Source of the DNA: Caulobacter flavus
Lineage (GTDB): Bacteria > Pseudomonadota > Alphaproteobacteria > Caulobacterales > Caulobacteraceae
Direction: 5' to 3'
DNA length: 64,000 bases
Assembly (NCBI RefSeq): GCF_003722335.1
Contig: NZ_CP026100.1
Span: 2,020,001-2,084,000 of the forward strand
Shown: in pieces, positions 1,724 to 64,000 of the stretch
Layout: the number at the start of each line of letters is the position of its first letter
Numbering within the stretch: position 1 is the first letter of the stretch
The notes under the pieces: generated by a model
Seen by the model: only the letters and a program-made list of their open reading frames with translations
What the model was told of the DNA's origin: nothing
The model's database searches: none
Program-made: the position numbers and the translations under genes

Positions 1724-3550
1724 TCAGCCGGCGATGGCCTCGCGCTTTTCCTCCAGCATCAGCCAGTCTTCCTCGGCCTGGGCCAGGTCGGCGCGGGCCT
1801 TGTCGAGGGCCTTCATGATCTTGTCGAAGCCGGCCGGATCGCGGGCGTAGAGGTTGGGGTCGTCCAGCTTCTTCTCCAGGTCGCCGAGGATCTTGGGAGA
1901 ATTGGCGATCAGGGCCTCGCACTCCTCCAGCCGGCGCTGGTCCTTGTAGGACAGCTTGGTGGTCTTCTTCGGAGCGGCGGGCGCGGCCGGGGCGGGCTTG
2001 GGGGCCGGGGCGCCGGTGGCGAAGTCGCCGGTCGCGCCGCGGGCGCCCTTGAAGAAGTCCGGGGCCTGGTCGATCAGGTCGGTCCAGCCGCCGGGCGTCT
2101 CCAGCACGTCGCCGTGGCCGTTCATGGCGATGGTCGAGGTGGCCAGGCGGTCGATGAAGTCGCGATCGTGGCTGACGAGAATGAGGGTTCCCTCGAAATC
2201 GGCCAGCAGCTCCTCCAGCAGGTCCAGCGTGTCCATGTCGAGGTCGTTGGTCGGTTCGTCGAGCACCAGCAGGTTCATCGGCGAGGCCAGGGCGCGGGCC
2301 AGCAGCAGGCGGTTGCGCTCGCCGCCCGACAGGCTGGTGACCGGCTGGCGCAGCTGGGCCTCGGTGAACAGGAACTCCTTGGCGTAGCCGGCGACGTGCT
2401 TGGAGACGCCGCGCACCAGGATGGAGTCGCCGCCCGACGGGGTCAGGAAGTCCCAGACGGTGATCTTTTCCGACAGGGCCAGGCGGTTCTGGTCGACATA
2501 GGCGATCTCCAGATTGGTCCCCAGCTGCACCGTGCCGGCGTCGGCCGGGATCTCGCCCAGCAGCAGGCGCACCAGCGTGGTCTTGCCCGCGCCGTTGGGG
2601 CCCACCAGGGCCACCCGGTCGCCGCGCAGGATGCGGGTGTTGAAGTTCTCGACGATCGTGCGGTCGCCGAAGGTCTTGGTCAGGCCCTTGGCCTCGACCA
2701 CCCGCTTGCCCGACGTGCCCGAGCTCTCGACGGCCATGGTCATCGAGCCGCGCTTCTCGGACTGGATGTCCTTCTTCTCGGCGCGCAGGGCCATTAGGGC
2801 GCGGCGGCGGCCCTCGTTGCGGGCCCGGCGACCCTGGACGCCGCGGGCCAGCCAGGCGTTCTCGACCTCGAGCTTCTTGTTGAGGCGGCGCTCCTCTTCC
2901 GCCTCGGCGGCCAGCACCTGCTCGCTCCAGGCCTCGAATTCGGAAAAGCCCTTGTCGAGGCGGCGCACCTTGCGGTGCTCCAGCCAGAAGGTGCGCTGGG
3001 TGACGCGGTTGAGGAAGGCGCGGTCGTGGCTGACGATCAGCGCCGCGCACTTGGAATTGGCCAGCTCCTCTTCCAGCGTCTGGATGGCGAAGATGTCGAG
3101 GTGGTTGGTGGGCTCGTCCAGCAGCAGCACGTCGGGCTGCTCGGCGAACGCCCGCGCCAGGGCGGCGCGGCGGCGCTCGCCGCCCGACAGCCCCTGCGTG
3201 CTCTGGTCGTAGTTCAGGCCGAAGTCGGCCAGGGTGGCGTGGGCCTCGTAGTCCTGGGCGCCGCCGGCGGTGCAGTAGTCGAGCAGCGTCTCGCCGGTGA
3301 TCTCCGGCTCCTGGCTGACGAACACCACCTTGGCGCCCGGCTGCACGGCGCGCTCGCCGCTGTCGGCCTCGGCGCCCTGGGCGGCCAGCACCTTGAGCAG
3401 GGTCGACTTGCCGGCGCCGTTGCGGCCCACCAGGCAGGCGCGGACGCGCGGCTCCAGGGCCAGGTCGACGCCGTCGAACAAAGGCTTGGCGCCGTCGGCG
3501 AGGCGGACGTCCTTGAGGGCGAGCACGGGGGCGCGGGCGGGGGCGGCCAT
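1724..3550 (-). CDS. uup: ABC-F family ATPase, Uup-like
   Basis: A 608-residue soluble protein with two ABC ATPase domains and no membrane segments. The first domain shows Walker A GRNGAGKSTLL (about 43-53) and signature LSGGERRRAALARAF. The second shows GPNGAGKTTLV and LSGGERNRLLLARAL. Both have LDEPTNHLD/LDEPTNDLD Walker B/D-loop motifs. A basic helical linker joins them, and the last 70 residues form a charged probable coiled coil, as in Uup. ABC-F proteins act on the ribosome or, for Uup, in DNA and ribosome metabolism. Uup is favoured over EttA by the C-terminal extension, but the symbol is an inference. Start chosen at MAAPARAPVLALKDV. Confidence 0.88.
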   Translation of the reverse strand: MAAPARAPVLALKDVRLADGAKPLFDGVDLALEPRVRACLVGRNGAGKSTLLKVLAAQGAEADSGERAVQPGAKVVFVSQEPEITGETLLDYCTAGGAQDYEAHATLADFGLNYDQSTQGLSGGERRRAALARAFAEQPDVLLLDEPTNHLDIFAIQTLEEELANSKCAALIVSHDRAFLNRVTQRTFWLEHRKVRRLDKGFSEFEAWSEQVLAAEAEEERRLNKKLEVENAWLARGVQGRRARNEGRRRALMALRAEKKDIQSEKRGSMTMAVESSGTSGKRVVEAKGLTKTFGDRTIVENFNTRILRGDRVALVGPNGAGKTTLVRLLLGEIPADAGTVQLGTNLEIAYVDQNRLALSEKITVWDFLTPSGGDSILVRGVSKHVAGYAKEFLFTEAQLRQPVTSLSGGERNRLLLARALASPMNLLVLDEPTNDLDMDTLDLLEELLADFEGTLILVSHDRDFIDRLATSTIAMNGHGDVLETPGGWTDLIDQAPDFFKGARGATGDFATGAPAPKPAPAAPAAPKKTTKLSYKDQRRLEECEALIANSPKILGDLEKKLDDPNLYARDPAGFDKIMKALDKARADLAQAEEDWLMLEEKREAIAG

Positions 3551-3654: not shown

Positions 3655-3755
3655 CCCCCTCAGTCGGCTTCGCCGACAGCTCCCCCAGAGGGGGAGCATC
3701 TTGCTGACCAGATCCTCCCCCTCTGGGGGAGGTGGCCCGGAGGGCCGGAGGGGGT
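3655..3755. repeat. R1 palindromic repeat pair
   Basis: Two R1 units face each other. The first (3655-3697) carries the TCGGCTTCGCCGA hairpin next to CTCCCCCAGAGGGGGAG. The second (3713-3755) carries CTCCCCCTCTGGGGGAG followed by TGGCCCGGAGGGCC. It occupies the gap between the ABC-F gene and the small membrane protein gene. Confidence 0.85.
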
Positions 3756-7025: not shown

Positions 7026-7207
7026 ACCTCTCCCCGTGGGGGAGGCGATCGCGCAGCGATCGGTGGGGGAGTTGGCGCCGCCGCCTCGGAAGCTGAAAAC
7101 GGCCCCTCTCCGGCCCTCCGGGCCACCTCCCCCAGAGGGGAGGATCTGGTCGGCGCTCTGGATGCTCCCCCCCTGGGGGAGCTGTCGCGGAGCGACTGAG
7201 GGGGGGT
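7026..7207. repeat. R1 repeat cluster (three units)
   Basis: Three R1 units fill the gap between two minus-strand genes. The first (7026-7070) carries the GATCGCGCAGCGATC hairpin. The second (7102-7144) carries CCGGCCCTCCGGGCC with CTCCCCCAGAGGGGAG. The third (7163-7207) carries GTCGCGGAGCGAC. AGCTGAAAAC just before the second unit recurs at two other loci (near 59724 and 63833), so the repeated unit extends beyond the palindromes. Confidence 0.85.
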
Positions 7208-10251: not shown

Positions 10252-10743
10252 ATGGCCGAGAAAAGCGAACGCATCGACGTGCTGATGGACGAGATCCGCG
10301 ACCTGGTCGTGGACACCTTTCACGGCGCCGCCAAGGAAATGCTGACCGAGGTGAAAGGTGAGCCGCCGAAGGCGCGGATGGAGGCGAGCAGGCAGGTCGC
10401 TCTCGTCGGGCGGCCGGTGGACATGCTCCACGCCGCCAGGCTGCGTTCGCGCAAGATCTCGGCCGCCAGGCAAGCGCGGATCGCCAAGGCGGTCGGCGAG
10501 GAGGTGGCGATGAATGACGACGAACCCTGGACCGCCGAACGATTGGAGCGGCTTCATGCCGCTATCGAGCGCCGACTGGGCGCTCCTGGATCCCTCGAAC
10601 TCAAGCGACTGGTTGCGGAGCGCGCCAGACTTGAAGCGGTGGGAAGAAGCCTGGCTGCGGGGCTGGACGGCGCTGGATCACCAGAAGCCGCCGCAAGCGG
10701 CCTGGGCGACCTGGCTGATGCTGGGCGGGCGGGGCGCGGGTAA
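10252..10743 (+). CDS. Putative GTA g1 (candidate small terminase subunit)
   Basis: A protein of up to 163 residues, predicted all-helical and highly charged (MAEKSERIDVLMDEIRDLV... then AERLERLHAAIERRLG). By position it matches g1 of the RcGTA cluster, described as the small terminase subunit, but I cannot see a diagnostic motif. Its 3' part overlaps the g2 frame for almost 190 bp. In the overlap the codon use of this frame becomes poorer (more A/T third positions), so it could be shorter or an artefact past residue 100. No strong ribosome-binding site is visible. Confidence 0.5.
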   Translation: MAEKSERIDVLMDEIRDLVVDTFHGAAKEMLTEVKGEPPKARMEASRQVALVGRPVDMLHAARLRSRKISAARQARIAKAVGEEVAMNDDEPWTAERLERLHAAIERRLGAPGSLELKRLVAERARLEAVGRSLAAGLDGAGSPEAAASGLGDLADAGRAGRG

Positions 10744-11833
10744 GACCTTCGCCGGGGCCGGCTGGGTGACCGACCAGGCAGCAAAGCCGTGCCGGATGGC
10801 GCTGGTGGGGCCCACCTTCCACGACGTGCGCGAGGTGATGATCGAGGGGCCGTCGGGCCTGCGGGCCATGGCCCAGGCGGGCAATCGCGTGCGCTGGGAA
10901 GGCTCGCGCCGGCGGCTGGTCTGGGACAACGGCGCGGAGGCCTACGCCTTTTCGGCCGAGGATCCCGACAGCCTGCGCGGGCCGCAGTTCCATGCGGCCT
11001 GGGCAGACGAGTTCTGCGCCTGGCCCAAGGCCAGCGAGACCCTGGCCATGCTGCGGTTCGGGCTGCGGCTGGGCGAGGACCCAAGGCTTGTGGTGACCAC
11101 CACGCCGCGTCCGACCCGGGCGCTGAAGGTGCTGATGGCCGAGCCGGGCGTCGTCACGACGCGGGCGGGGACAGCGGCCAACGCCGGCAACCTGGCGCCG
11201 GCCTTCCTGGCCACGCTGGAGGGGCTGTACGGCGGCACCCGGCTGGCGGCCCAGGAGCTGGAGGGGATCGTCGTCGAGACCGACGGCAGCCTCTTTCGCG
11301 CCGAGGACCTGGCCAGATGTCGCGGGGCGCCGCCGGCGAAGTTCGACCGGGTGGTGGTGGCGGTCGACCCGCCGGCCACCGCGCGCGGCGACGCCTGCGG
11401 GGTGGTGGTCGCGGGCCGAAGGGACGGCCGCGCCTACGTGCTGGCCGACCGCACGGCGCGAGGGCTGTCGCCCAACGGCTGGGCGCGCCTGGCCGTGGCG
11501 GCGGCCGTGGATTTCGACGCCGACGCGCTGGTGGCCGAGGCCAACCAGGGCGGCGACATGGTCCGCACCGTGCTGGCCCAGGCCGCGCCGCCGTGCCCGA
11601 TCAAGCTGGTGCGGGCGTCCGTGGGCAAACGGGCCCGGGCCGAGCCGGTGGCGGCGCTCTACGAGCAGGGCCGGGTGGTCCACTGCGGGGCGTTCCCGGC
11701 GCTGGAGGAGGAACTGATGGGCCTGGGCGACGGGGACCTTGGCCACAGCCCCGACCGGGCGGACGCCCTGGTCTGGGCGCTGAGCGAGCTGATGCTGGGC
11801 GGGGGCAGGGAGCCGCGGCTTAGGGTGGTGTGA
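10556..11833 (+). CDS. GTA g2: large terminase subunit (DNA packaging ATPase/nuclease)
   Basis: A protein of 425 residues from MPLSSADWALLDP; an ATG at 10514 would add 14 residues. The ATPase domain shows Walker A LGGRGAGKTFAGA and a Walker B-like FHAAWADEF. The nuclease half has DRVVVAVDPPAT with acidic residues and GVVVAGRRDGRAYVLADRT, then a late SPDRADALVWALSELM segment. It packages random host DNA into GTA particles. It follows g1 and is separated from the portal gene by an invading DUF559/repeat block, which is unusual since g2 and g3 are normally adjacent. Confidence 0.92.
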   Translation: MPLSSADWALLDPSNSSDWLRSAPDLKRWEEAWLRGWTALDHQKPPQAAWATWLMLGGRGAGKTFAGAGWVTDQAAKPCRMALVGPTFHDVREVMIEGPSGLRAMAQAGNRVRWEGSRRRLVWDNGAEAYAFSAEDPDSLRGPQFHAAWADEFCAWPKASETLAMLRFGLRLGEDPRLVVTTTPRPTRALKVLMAEPGVVTTRAGTAANAGNLAPAFLATLEGLYGGTRLAAQELEGIVVETDGSLFRAEDLARCRGAPPAKFDRVVVAVDPPATARGDACGVVVAGRRDGRAYVLADRTARGLSPNGWARLAVAAAVDFDADALVAEANQGGDMVRTVLAQAAPPCPIKLVRASVGKRARAEPVAALYEQGRVVHCGAFPALEEELMGLGDGDLGHSPDRADALVWALSELMLGGGREPRLRVV

Positions 11834-12408
11834 GCGCCCTTCGGGCGACCCCCACCGGCCCTTCGGGCCGCCTCCCCCACAGGGGGATCGTTGCATAATG
11901 GGGTAAAACAAGAACGACTTTCCCCTTTTGATTCCGAACTGTTCTCGAACGGATTCTGGTCTGTTCTTCGACGTTCCGAATTTCGCAACAGTCCCCCACA
12001 GGGGGAGGTTCGGCGTTCAAGGGGCCTCCCCCTGTGGGGGAGGCGACCGCGCAGCGGTCGGTGGGGGAGTTCCGCACGGATCGTCGCGACGACGTCGTCG
12101 ACCGATTTCAACACTTCGGCGGCGGGGATCCGCAGCGTGCGTATGCCGAAGCCGGCCATGTAGTCGTCACGAATGGCGTCTCGTTCGGGGCGGTCCTCGG
12201 TGTCGTGGGCGTAGCTGTCGATTTCGACGGCGAGCTTGAAGGCCGGGCAGTAGAAATCGAGCACATAGGGACCGAACGGGTGCTGGCGGCGAAAGCGCAA
12301 ACCGTCCAGCTGACTGCCGCGCAGAGCCTTCCAGAGCATCATTTCGGGCAGGGACATGTCCTTGCGCAGGGCGCGAGCGCGTCGGACGAGCGGGTTTTCG
12401 TCGGGCAT
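11659..12408 (-). CDS. DUF559 (Vsr/PD-(D/E)XK-like) endonuclease-domain protein with run-on C-terminus
   Basis: From MPDENPLVRRARALR (ATG at 12408) the DUF559 domain covers residues 1-114: the LPEMMLWKAL start, LRFRRQHPFGPYVLDFYCP, the acidic/His nuclease-like core LAVEIDSYAHD and the terminal IRTLRIPAAEVL. After Leu114 the frame enters R1 repeats, the 116-bp element and the antisense of g2 with no stop until 11659, so the last 135 residues are probably not native. Its ribosome-binding site (GGAG) is donated by the repeat upstream. It sits antisense between GTA g2 and g3, bracketed by inverted R1 copies. A likely mobile passenger; its activity is unproven. Confidence 0.7.
   Translation of the reverse strand: MPDENPLVRRARALRKDMSLPEMMLWKALRGSQLDGLRFRRQHPFGPYVLDFYCPAFKLAVEIDSYAHDTEDRPERDAIRDDYMAGFGIRTLRIPAAEVLKSVDDVVATIRAELPHRPLRGRLPHRGRPLERRTSPCGGLLRNSERRRTDQNPFENSSESKGESRSCFTPLCNDPPVGEAARRAGGGRPKGAHTTLSRGSLPPPSISSLSAQTRASARSGLWPRSPSPRPISSSSSAGNAPQWTTRPCS
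11849..12069. repeat. R1 repeat block with nested 116-bp element
   Basis: Starting 16 bp after the g2 stop, R1 units run up to the 3' side of the DUF559 domain. The first unit has the CCGGCCCTTCGGGCC hairpin and a CTCCCCCACAGGGGGAG palindrome split at its loop by the 116-bp element at 11882-11997. The last unit (12025-12069) carries GACCGCGCAGCGGTC and is the inverted counterpart of the unit at 12418-12463. Confidence 0.85.
11882..11997 (+). mobile_element. 116-bp MITE-like element, copy A
   Basis: The ends GGGGGATCGTTGC and GCAACAGTCCCCC form a 13-bp inverted repeat with two mismatches. ACA flanks both sides (11879-11881 and 11998-12000), consistent with a 3-bp target duplication in the loop of an R1 palindrome. 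It is identical by eye to copy B (59798-59913) and differs from copy C (63881-63996, opposite orientation) at about two positions. No coding capacity. Confidence 0.8.
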
Positions 12409-12417
12409 CGGCTGTCG

Positions 12418-12463
12418 CTCCCCCCACCGATCGCTGCGCGATCGCCTCCCCCACGGGGGGAGG
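12418..12463. repeat. R1 repeat upstream of the DUF559 gene
   Basis: CTCCCCCC, then the hairpin GATCGCTGCGCGATC, then CTCCCCCACGGGGGGAG. It is the inverted partner of the unit at 12025-12069 and lies 10 bp before the DUF559 start codon. Confidence 0.85.
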
Positions 12464-12527: not shown

Positions 12528-13664
12528 ATGGCCCTCTTCGCTCGCCGGCGCGCGCCGGAAATCAAGGATTCGCGGGCCGCCAGGCTGGTGGCGCTGACCA
12601 GCGGCGGGCGGCCGCAGTGGACGCCCAGGGACTATGCGACCCTGGCGGCCGAGGGGTTCGGCAAGAACCCGGTGGCCTATCGCTGCGTGCGGATGATCGC
12701 CGAGGCCGCGGCCGCCGTGCCGCTGGCGGTGTTCCATGACGGGCGGCGCAGCGACGGGCATCCGCTGGCGCGGCTGCTGGCGGCGCCCAATCCCGAGCAG
12801 GGCGGGCCCGACCTGATGGAGGCGTTCTTCGGGCACCTGCAGGTGGCGGGCAACGGCTATCTGGAGGCGGCCGGCGACCAGCCGGGCGAGCTCTACGCCC
12901 TGCGGCCCGACCGGATGAGCGTGGTGCCGGGGGCGCGCGGCTGGCCGGCGGCCTACGACTACCAGGCCGGCGGGCGGACGGCGCGGATCGCCCGCGACGC
13001 CGACGGCTGGCTGCCGGTGCTGCACCTGAAGCTGTTCAACCCGACCAGCGATCACTACGGGGCCTCGCCGCTGGAGGCGGCGGCCTTCGCCATCGACGTG
13101 CACACCGCCTCGGGGGCCTGGAACAAGGCGCTGCTCGACAACGCCGCGCGGCCGTCGGGGGCGCTGGTCTATGGCGGCCGCGACGGCGACCGGCTCTCCG
13201 AGGAGCAGTTCGAGCGGCTGAAGGCCGAGCTGGCCAATGCGCACGGCGGGACGGCCAACGCCGGCCGGCCGCTGCTGCTGGAGGGCGGGCTGGAGTGGAA
13301 GCCGATGTCGCTGACCCCGGCGGACCTGGACTTCGTCGAGGGCAAGCACGCGGCGGCGCGCGAGATCGCCCTGGCCTTCGGGGTTCCGCCGCAGCTGCTG
13401 GGGATCCCGGGCGACAACACCTACGCCAACTATCGCGAGGCCAACGGGGCGTTCTGGCGGCACACGGTCGTGCCCCTGGCCGAGCGGGCGGCGCGGGCGC
13501 TGACGGCCTGGCTGGGGCCGAAGTTCCCCGGCGCGCGGGTGGCCTGCGACCTCGACGCCGTGCCGGCCCTGAGCGCCGAACGCGACGCGCTGTGGGCGCG
13601 GCTGGAGGCGGCGAGCTTCCTGACCGACGCCGAGCGGCGGCGGCTGGCGGGGTTGGAGGGTTAG
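12528..13664 (+). CDS. GTA g3: portal protein (HK97/phage portal family)
   Basis: A protein of 378 residues from MALFARRRAPEIK; the ATG is preceded by GGGAG. Family features are VAYRCVRMIAEAAAAVPL near residue 45, a central LHLKLFNPTSDHYGASPLEAAAFAID, and FGVPPQLLGIPGDNTYANYREANGAFWRHTVVPL near 285-320, the classic portal stem/clip region. It forms the dodecameric ring at the capsid vertex through which DNA enters. Length is normal for the GTA portal. An upstream start at 12471 is in repeat-adjacent sequence and is rejected. Confidence 0.92.
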   Translation: MALFARRRAPEIKDSRAARLVALTSGGRPQWTPRDYATLAAEGFGKNPVAYRCVRMIAEAAAAVPLAVFHDGRRSDGHPLARLLAAPNPEQGGPDLMEAFFGHLQVAGNGYLEAAGDQPGELYALRPDRMSVVPGARGWPAAYDYQAGGRTARIARDADGWLPVLHLKLFNPTSDHYGASPLEAAAFAIDVHTASGAWNKALLDNAARPSGALVYGGRDGDRLSEEQFERLKAELANAHGGTANAGRPLLLEGGLEWKPMSLTPADLDFVEGKHAAAREIALAFGVPPQLLGIPGDNTYANYREANGAFWRHTVVPLAERAARALTAWLGPKFPGARVACDLDAVPALSAERDALWARLEAASFLTDAERRRLAGLEG

Positions 13665-13670
13665 TCGAGA

Positions 13671-13806
13671 CCCTCTCCCCGAAGGGGGAGGTGGCCCGGA
13701 GGGCCGGAGAGGGAAGTCCCTTCGTCCTTCAACGTGTCGCCGCCTCCGCAATCACATCCCCCTCCGTCGGCTTCGCCGACACCTCCCCCTTCAGGGGGAG
13801 GGTCTT
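13671..13806. repeat. Inverted pair of R1 repeats between g3 and g3.5
   Basis: Unit one (13671-13714) has TGGCCCGGAGGGCC; unit two (13757-13806) has TCGGCTTCGCCGA and CTCCCCCTTCAGGGGGAG. The pair ends 14 bp before the g3.5 start codon. Confidence 0.85.
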
Positions 13807-14472: not shown

Positions 14473-14600
14473 ATCCTCCCCCCGAAGGGGGAGGTGGCCC
14501 GGAGGGCCGGAGGGGGAAGCAATCCCCGCGCCGGCCACTTCCCCCTCCGTCGTCCCGGCCTTCGCCGGGCCGACACCTCCCCCTTCTGGGGAGGGTCTTC
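14473..14600. repeat. Inverted pair of R1 repeats between g4 and g5
   Basis: The first unit (14473-14518) has CTCCCCCCGAAGGGGGAG and TGGCCCGGAGGGCC. The second (14539-14600) has CCCGGCCTTCGCCGGG and CTCCCCCTTCTGGGGAG. It ends about 18 bp before the capsid start codon. Confidence 0.85.
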
Positions 14601-15867: not shown

Positions 15868-15991
15868 CCCTCCCCCTGAAGGGGGAGGTGGCGCGAAGCG
15901 CCGGAGGGGGAAGCCGCGCGGGCGACACCCCAGCCCCTTCCCCCTCCGTCGTCCCTCCGGGCCGACACCTCCCCCTTCAGGGGGAGGGTCT
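15868..15991. repeat. Inverted pair of R1 repeats between g5 and g6
   Basis: The first unit (15868-15911) has CTCCCCCTGAAGGGGGAG with GGCGCGAAGCGCC. The second (15939-15991) has CCCTCCGGG and CTCCCCCTTCAGGGGGAG. It ends 18 bp before the g6 start codon. Confidence 0.85.
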
Positions 15992-59674: not shown

Positions 59675-59927
59675 GATCCTCCCCCTCTGGGGGAGGTGGC
59701 CCGGAGGGCCGGAGGGGGGACGTTTTCAGCTTCCATAAAGCCGGCCGGTTTCCCCGCAACTCCCCCCACCGATCGCTGCGCGATCGCCTCCCCCACAGGG
59801 GGATCGTTGCATAATGGGGTAAAACAAGAACGACTTTCCCCTTTTGATTCCGAACTGTTCTCGAACGGATTCTGGTCTGTTCTTCGACGTTCCGAATTTC
59901 GCAACAGTCCCCCACAGGGGGAGGTTC
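59675..59927. repeat. R1 repeat block with nested 116-bp element
   Basis: The first unit (about 59675-59720) has CTCCCCCTCTGGGGGAG and TGGCCCGGAGGGCC, followed by ACGTTTTCAGCT as at other loci. The second (about 59763-59925) has GATCGCTGCGCGATC and a CTCCCCCACAGGGGGAG palindrome split by the 116-bp element. Confidence 0.85.
59798..59913 (+). mobile_element. 116-bp MITE-like element, copy B
   Basis: Same ends and same sequence by eye as copy A (11882-11997). ACA flanks both sides (59795-59797 and 59914-59916), again within the loop of an R1 palindrome. It lies 14 bp beyond the stop of msrQ. Confidence 0.8.
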
Positions 59928-63679: not shown

Positions 63680-64000
63680 CGAATGCTCCGGGTGTAGGGA
63701 ATGGCCCGTCCTTCAGGAGCTTCAACGGGGCAGGGCGGGGTTTCCGTCGCTGACCGCAAGATCCTCCCCCTGAAGGGGGAGGTGTCGGCGAAGCCGACGG
63801 AGGGGGAAGTGGGCTGACTGTCAGCGTTTCGAAAGCTGAAAACGGCCCCCCTCCGGCCCTTCGGGCCACCTCCCCCCAGAGGGGGACTGTTGCGAAATTC
63901 GGAACGTCGAAGAACAGACCAGAATCTGTTCGAGAACAGTTCGGAATCAAAAGGGGAAAGTCGTTCTCGTTTTACCCCATTATGCAACGATCCCCCAGAG
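63680..64000. repeat. Intergenic region with R1 units and nested element, window end
   Basis: About 80 bp of promoter region for the EF-hand operon (63680-63760), then an R1 unit with TCGGCGAAGCCGA (63762-63804). AGCTGAAAAC (63833-63842) follows, then an R1 unit with CCGGCCCTTCGGGCC (about 63850-63880) interrupted by the 116-bp element. No gene is seen. Confidence 0.8.
63881..63996 (-). mobile_element. 116-bp MITE-like element, copy C (opposite orientation)
   Basis: The reverse complement of copies A and B with about two substitutions. AGA flanks both sides (63878-63880 and 63997-63999) instead of ACA, matching the loop of its own R1 host palindrome. The window ends one base later. Confidence 0.78.

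Follow-up and report, generated by a model that had tools for sequence, protein, structure and literature searches.

Vsr-like DUF559 nuclease genes often lie between inverted repeats that follow an intrastrand-triplex rule: a probable counterpart of RAYT-REP systems

RAYT systems are characterized by inverted flanking units, doublets of units and a pairing of lineages. In the REP/REPIN systems with RAYT (TnpAREP; see PMC2817692, PMC3116915, PMC3686654 and PMC8266576), a small nuclease gene lies amid inverted multicopy palindromic repeat units, gene-less inverted doublets are present elsewhere, and gene and repeat lineages pair with each other. These traits are common to the DUF559 genes described here. 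The RAYT-like layout pointed out in a preliminary description of this DNA was borne out by a gene lying between convergent units, by short gene-less doublets in the same orientation and by cognate pairing. The component parts are different. The RAYT enzyme has an HUH fold, whereas the DUF559 protein has a predicted Vsr-like PD-(D/E)XK fold, and the DUF559-associated repeats, unlike REP, possess a third-strand foot that mirrors the purine arm; the GTAG or CGTC tag of the REP foot was not seen in the two flanking units of the window (the whole stretch of 64,000 nucleotides of Caulobacter flavus DNA analysed). Neither enzyme nor repeat is common to both systems, and the DUF559 system would resemble RAYT-REP in its way of working.

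BoxC, PIT and TM repeats have been on record since the 1990s and are tied to genome instability. According to the available text of PMC4666352 (Holder et al. 2015), the class II intrastrand triplex repeats now named TM were formerly called BoxC or PIT, and E. coli carries them; Neisseria, Microcystis and Pseudomonas are named there as genera rich in TM. Like the DUF559 units, they show the order Y, R, reverse Hoogsteen strand with A(T)AT and GGC triads, and are GC-rich, multicopy and wide in bacteria. In that text, mobility activities were not found around E. coli TM sites, whereas here DUF559 lies between convergent units, and the loops of the ITxF search were of 1 to 6 nt, whereas many units here have a longer second hairpin. 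The PF04480 profile, which defines DUF559, matched 2 of 14 control genomes, and E. coli, one of the 14, gave no match; since E. coli has TM repeats, repeats of this kind exist without a present DUF559 gene.

The DUF559 domain is also contained in Caulobacter crescentus VsrA (CCNA_02930), which has been studied as a mismatch-repair candidate and is required for the SOS response in cells lacking ScmA (PMC12907096, available text). Because VsrA causes an SOS response, a member of the family is active in vivo, with another proposed target. VsrA is tied to the motif YGCCGGCR, and the same text mentions no repeat link, in contrast with the repeat-bracketed DUF559 genes studied here. The number of a Vsr-like gene, CCNA_02876, falls inside the GTA range CCNA_02880-02861 in the available text of PMC9632790; it comes after that of the portal gene CCNA_02877, hence CCNA_02876 may not be the gene that lies between terminase and portal. 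Near solved structures by profile and fold are I-Bth0305I (3r3p) and NGO0050 (3hrl). I-Bth0305I is an intron enzyme, whereas the DUF559 gene of the window is free-standing between two GTA genes, without intron or intein, and the homing endonuclease class was therefore set aside. A link between DUF559 and repeats was not found in the accessible text of the open full-text literature, outside which most subscription papers and preprints lie.

In standard GTAs, g2 and g3 are neighbours. In the window, the DUF559 gene lies antisense between the terminase and portal genes (Table 1), as the preliminary description had it, and the translation of 12408-12067 matched the PF04480 profile with an E value of 1.2e-27 (96.4 bits, gathering cut-off 20.6). 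The two R1 units around it are inverted copies of each other over 43 bp (40/43 identical). The R1 core pattern, allowing up to 3 mismatches, was matched 41 times in the whole genome and the reversed control pattern 0 times, and the inverted-flank score at this locus was 34 (36 in a second calculation), versus 10 and 11 in the two adjoining windows; a chance origin of the inverted flanks is thus excluded, and the inverted copies claimed earlier are real. The domain comprises 114 residues and, as had been noticed, its last codon (12069-12067) coincides with the left unit's inner boundary. The open frame extends further. The left unit has no stop codon, so the frame remains open to 11659 (249 aa from the ATG), crossing the left unit and a second inserted repeat into the antisense of the terminase 3' end. 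The frame of the other 25 complete GTA copies extends 5 to 44 codons beyond the domain and in many cases enters the unit; the absent stop codon of the window gene is odd. On the other side, the foot of the right unit plus GAG ends 9 nt 5' of the ATG and could supply the ribosome-binding site, as had been suggested.

Table 1. Features of the DUF559 locus and related repeats in the window
Feature	Position	Strand	Details and basis
GTA g2, large terminase	10514..11833	+	Pfam
Additional repeat unit to the left of the element, GGCC in hairpin 2	11849..11889	-	by eye
100-bp MITE-like insert, TCCCCCACAGGGGGA near both ends (hairpin-1 palindrome)	11890..11989	+	sequence
Left R1 unit	12025..12067	+	Y arm 12025-12032, loop, R arm 12036-12043
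Left R1 unit, rest	hairpin 2 12044-12059; third-strand foot 12060-12067	+	sequence reading and triad rule
DUF559 (PF04480) Vsr-like nuclease gene	12067..12408	-	ATG 12408; domain end 12067; PF04480 profile
Right R1 unit, inverted copy of left	12421..12463	-	foot 12428-12421
GTA g3, portal protein	12528..13664	+	Pfam; ATG 12528, stop 13664
Gene-less R1 doublet (mini-element), convergent units, short spacer	7026..7140	.	by eye
One other-type unit and R1 unit with MITE in hairpin 1	59678..59925	.	sequence

Other repeats are present in the window. The further unit left of the element has its hairpin 1 broken by the inserted repeat (by eye). This 100-bp MITE-like repeat is identical to 59806-59905, a third copy, reversed, starts from 63889, and it lies inside the hairpin-1 palindrome of R1-type units, flanked on either side by TCCCCCACAGGGGGA. 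Its ends were found beside at least 7 of 30 R1 loci, and it seems to target hairpin-1 palindromes of R1-type units. More inverted doublets, with other hairpin-2 stems, were observed at 3660-3740, 13672-13800, 14475-14590, 15869-15983 and 63763-63880; three of these five lie between or beside GTA genes, and the one at 3660 is in the opposite order.

The predicted structure of the window protein (pLDDT 93.9) was used for a Foldseek search, in which the best match was NGO0050 (3hrl, E 6e-8). I-Bth0305I (3r3p) and PvuRts1I each reached 1e-3, and Vsr (1vsr) was matched with an E value of 0.03, a TMq of 0.50 and a probability of 1.00. A profile search of solved structures likewise returned 3hrl (5.9e-36) and 3r3p (9.6e-4). 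Judging from the model, the protein would have a Vsr-like PD-(D/E)XK fold; E22, W26, Q42, D51, E62, D64 and R93 are invariant across 67 DUF559 sequences. In the Foldseek search, a mitoribosome protein of Toxoplasma came second (5.9e-4). That Ser65 marks the window copy as decayed was rejected, given that Ser65 is also present in other GTA copies. The PADLOC matches were all weak and partial.

To find out how general the bracketing is, a motif-free test was applied, in which the 250 bp to the left of the domain were aligned with the reverse-complemented 250 bp to its right, with a threshold score of 18. That DUF559 genes might lie mostly without flanks was thereby put to the test, and the majority proved to have them: inverted flanks were observed at 186 of 239 loci (181/234 minus five known duplicates), versus 0/460 control windows next to DUF559 loci (0/316 and 0/144). 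At a score of 15 or more, the controls yielded 3/316 and 1/144. Terminal inverted repeats, as in transposable elements, are accordingly present at DUF559 loci by this test and by the unit test described below. All four DUF559 genes of the C. flavus genome were bracketed, together with 74/87 loci of the genus, 43/69 of the class (Alphaproteobacteria) and 65/79 named loci, leaving 13/87, 26/69 and 14/79, respectively, below the threshold; no inverted flank similarity was found at L053, L055, L101, L110, L115, L127 and L147, among others. The class loci L093-L192 are a selection from the listed PF04480 matches, and the named loci are the best 80 of at least 573 confirmed relatives, many of them MAGs with possibly wrong labels; 1/80 named and 2/89 genus loci were unusable for the flank test. 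At least five named loci (L242, L245, L248, L272 and L320, all bracketed) duplicate genes already counted and are included in the named-locus, triad-rule and two-sided-unit counts. The named loci bracketed comprised 38/43 from Alphaproteobacteria, 13/15 from Gammaproteobacteria, 2/4 from Betaproteobacteria, 1/2 from unassigned Pseudomonadota and 11/15 from others. Among these others, the bracketed loci bear the labels Chloroflexi, Desulfobacteraceae and related, Gastranaerophilales, Kuenenia and an uncultured bacterium, and the loci below the threshold those of Nitrospirae, Spirochaetes, Desulfobulbaceae and an uncultured bacterium. At the same threshold, the two flanks were often similar in direct orientation as well (own 2/4, genus 31/87, class 23/69, named 41/79), which is compatible with local clusters of units.

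The repeats had been described as palindromic. Palindromes are indeed present, and the units are more than that. Their order is Y arm, loop, R arm, an optional second hairpin, a G-rich foot and then the gene, and the foot mirrors the R arm with A opposed by A or T, as in GGGAGAAGGG with GGGATGAGGG, GGGGGAAGGG with GGGATGGGGG and GGGGGAGG with GGTGGGGG. In their sequence, the flanking units obey the purine-motif class II intrastrand-triplex rule (BoxC/PIT/TM), and they may form triplexes physically. The mean triad match of 404 units was 0.897, versus 0.762 with permuted arms and 0.678 upstream, and a match of at least 0.87 was reached by 297/404 units versus 31/403 upstream. The antiparallel orientation of the third strand fitted better in 210 units, the parallel one in 13, and both equally in 102; the base opposite A was A or T in 705 of 724 cases, in units preselected at a match of 0.75. 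A triplex-rule unit was present on both sides of 139/236 DUF559 genes versus 0/461 control windows, and on at least one side of 193/236 genes versus 14/461 controls; two-sided units occurred at 30/68 class loci and 35/78 named loci, a minority in each. The spacer between R arm and foot measured up to 8 nt in 129/339 units and at least 12 nt in 207/339, often with a second hairpin, as in both window units. A second stem of at least 5 bp was found in 126 of these 207 longer spacers, versus 22.6 expected, with 63 different stems.

Each DUF559 lineage proved to have its own repeats. The link with R1 proposed earlier holds at the window locus and fails as an exclusive one: the other three DUF559 loci of the source genome (L001-L003) are flanked by a different repeat, and R1 was rejected as the sole partner. 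Protein identity between paralogues predicted unit similarity over 75 within-genome pairs from 38 genomes, which are not independent (Spearman 0.655; p 5e-4 by permutation, the lowest value that 2000 shuffles can give). Similarly, the left and right units of one gene had a similarity of 0.72 (n=97), versus 0.33 for units of same-genome paralogues (n=129; p 2e-23, pairs again not independent). Flank types at the GTA site vary between species, and both flanks usually match (inverted score 16-62, 26 loci). With flank types assigned by eye and three of at least five types counted genome-wide, the type at the GTA site was associated with its genomic abundance in 26 genomes (P2, p 4e-4; P3, p 1.6e-3; P1, p 0.014). 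Thus, P2 was present in 78, 78 and 80 copies in the three P2-flanked genomes and in at most 49 in the other 23; P1 was abundant in G043 and G055, neither of which is P1-flanked.

The possibility that repeats are equally common without DUF559 was examined with the TCTCCC hairpin, which is commoner than R1, in place of R1, and was not borne out for this hairpin. The DUF559 family was found in 56 of the 61 genomes of the genus, at 0 to 13 copies per genome. Among 241 alphaproteobacterial genomes, the median number of TCTCCC hairpins, a count resting on one motif, was 12 in those with a full DUF559 gene (best E below 1e-20; n=57) and 0 in the others (n=184), and at least 10 hairpins were present in 30/57 versus 6/184 (Fisher p 7e-17). 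Of these six, three had weak or partial DUF559 matches and three (G077, G230 and G254) no PF04480 match; fewer than 10 hairpins were found in 27/57 genomes with a full gene. Contrasts within families were positive in 20 cases, tied in 3 and negative in 0, and within genera in 7, 3 and 0, respectively.

Whole elements are present or absent beside approximately 97% identical neighbouring DNA. The L001 site lies 5' of a gene that we take to be pyrB, and the element was found there in 3 of the 30 genomes examined, the source genome included; the site carries no repeat in G009 (97%), another doublet in G019 (97%), and gene-less R2-type doublets in G031 and apparently also in G056. At the L003 site the element was present in 4/30 genomes, and G055 (97%) shows a single hairpin-1 palindrome, compatible with loss or with a pre-insertion site. 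DUF559 elements thus turn over and appear to move. The L001 site is occupied in further genomes of the genus (L342, L349 and L350) by a different family of inverted repeats (TGCGTCCTTCGAGGC...GCCTCGAAGGACGCA), which suggests an insertion hot spot common to several repeat families.

Gene-less doublets were examined at 30 of the 41 R1 matches. A script recovered 21 of them, 11 with a convergent partner; in 9 of these 11 pairs the gap was 41-44 bp, the other 2 being the gene element, and by eye all 28 gene-less R1 loci have a partner unit. In these mini-elements (L005-L034), also by eye, the R1 unit is mostly paired with a second unit of a different hairpin-2 stem, and the spacer is mostly a common one ending in GCTGAAAAC. 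As judged by eye, second unit and spacer differ from those of the gene element, so an origin of the doublets from that element by mere internal deletion was not supported.

By analogy with RAYT-REP, DUF559 genes and triplex-rule repeats probably constitute a nuclease-repeat partnership. The Vsr-like nuclease would recognize its own unit type (Y arm, R arm and third-strand foot), most likely on a single-stranded unit or one extruded as a hairpin or triplex, and would nick or cut there. Subsequent repair or strand transfer, drawing on another copy, would spread or homogenize units and short doublets and in some cases an entire unit-gene-unit element, the DUF559 protein thereby mobilizing the repeats. 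An unlikely alternative is that the nuclease lets genomes live with repeats, without spreading them, by processing the hairpin or triplex structures that they cause at replication forks, with the flanking units acting as operators or sensors in an autoregulatory arrangement. Cognate pairing, the copy-number link and, at the GTA site, the long residence and purifying selection described below agree with such tolerance, as does the end of one unit just 5' of the start codon; it leaves unexplained, on its own, the two-sided convergent bracketing, the near-constant gaps of the doublets and the presence or absence of whole elements at a site.

The partnership reading has to accommodate a GTA copy that stays in place like a host gene, which counts against it. 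The terminase was matched in 47/61 genomes of the genus, and the best 30 loci (L193-L222) were examined. Two of them (L203 and L222) end before the terminase-portal junction, and 26 of the 28 readable junctions carry a complete, antisense DUF559 gene; in L209 the gene is cut by the locus end, and in L195 (G019) it is absent, an inverted CCTTCTCCC-type doublet (2780-3040) lying where other genomes have the gene. The dN/dS of GTA-located DUF559 had a median of 0.07 in 13 pairs (0.02-0.17 in 12 of them), showing that the nuclease is under purifying selection there. A recent insertion into the cluster was rejected on the strength of the junctions. In correction of the preliminary description, the GTA copy is no new arrival: it has long been part of the genus and is inherited vertically. 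In the best reading, the gene has resided at this site for long, and the repeats on its flanks are replaced as the repeat population of the genome turns over. Conservation of gene, orientation and selection would also suit a domesticated GTA component, e.g., one for DNA processing in packaging or in the recipient, a role that is compatible with the partnership for other DUF559 copies. It is nevertheless distinctly unlikely, in view of a gene antisense to the GTA genes, of the GTA-bearing G019 with a doublet instead of it, and of the midpoint-rooted tree, in which all 26 GTA copies share a clade of 31 tips with five copies from outside the GTA.

It is very improbable that an unrelated mobilizer moves the repeats and that DUF559 travels along as cargo enclosed by a pair of units. 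Any gene could be carried by such an inverted pair, and mobilization by DUF559 is itself deduced; such a passenger would not be expected, however, to be one family bracketed in several phyla, nor to have its repeat type track the protein lineage within genomes. Y1 transposases (PF01797) gave no match in the C. flavus genome at E ≤ 0.001 and showed no link with hairpin-rich genomes (8/51 versus 28/190, p 0.83), so a RAYT as the hidden mobilizer was not supported. Finally, that DUF559 proteins are Vsr-type enzymes tied to solitary cytosine methyltransferases, with repeats merely accumulating nearby, is hardly credible: the SOS requirement for VsrA and the predicted structural kinship with Vsr fit it, whereas it accounts for neither the bracketing nor the cognate pairing, and a location of the ScmA/VsrA motif inside the units was rejected, its core GCCGGC occurring in 1/339 of them. 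This scarcity of the VsrA-linked motif in the units also counts against the partnership.

The nuclease-repeat partnership would be another instance, after RAYT-REP, of this mode of life, built from unrelated parts, and points to a role for a domain that has had no assigned function. We propose tentatively, as one joint claim, that DUF559 proteins are structure-guided nucleases that cut their cognate triplex repeats and copy the repeats and sometimes their own gene, and that they define a class of triplex-terminated elements in several phyla, DUF559 being the missing source of BoxC/PIT/TM. If so, genomes with repeats and without a DUF559 gene would be relics. DUF559 is a candidate for an enzyme that acts in nature on a DNA triplex or hairpin, and its bracketing makes the origin of intrastrand-triplex repeats a question for the bench.
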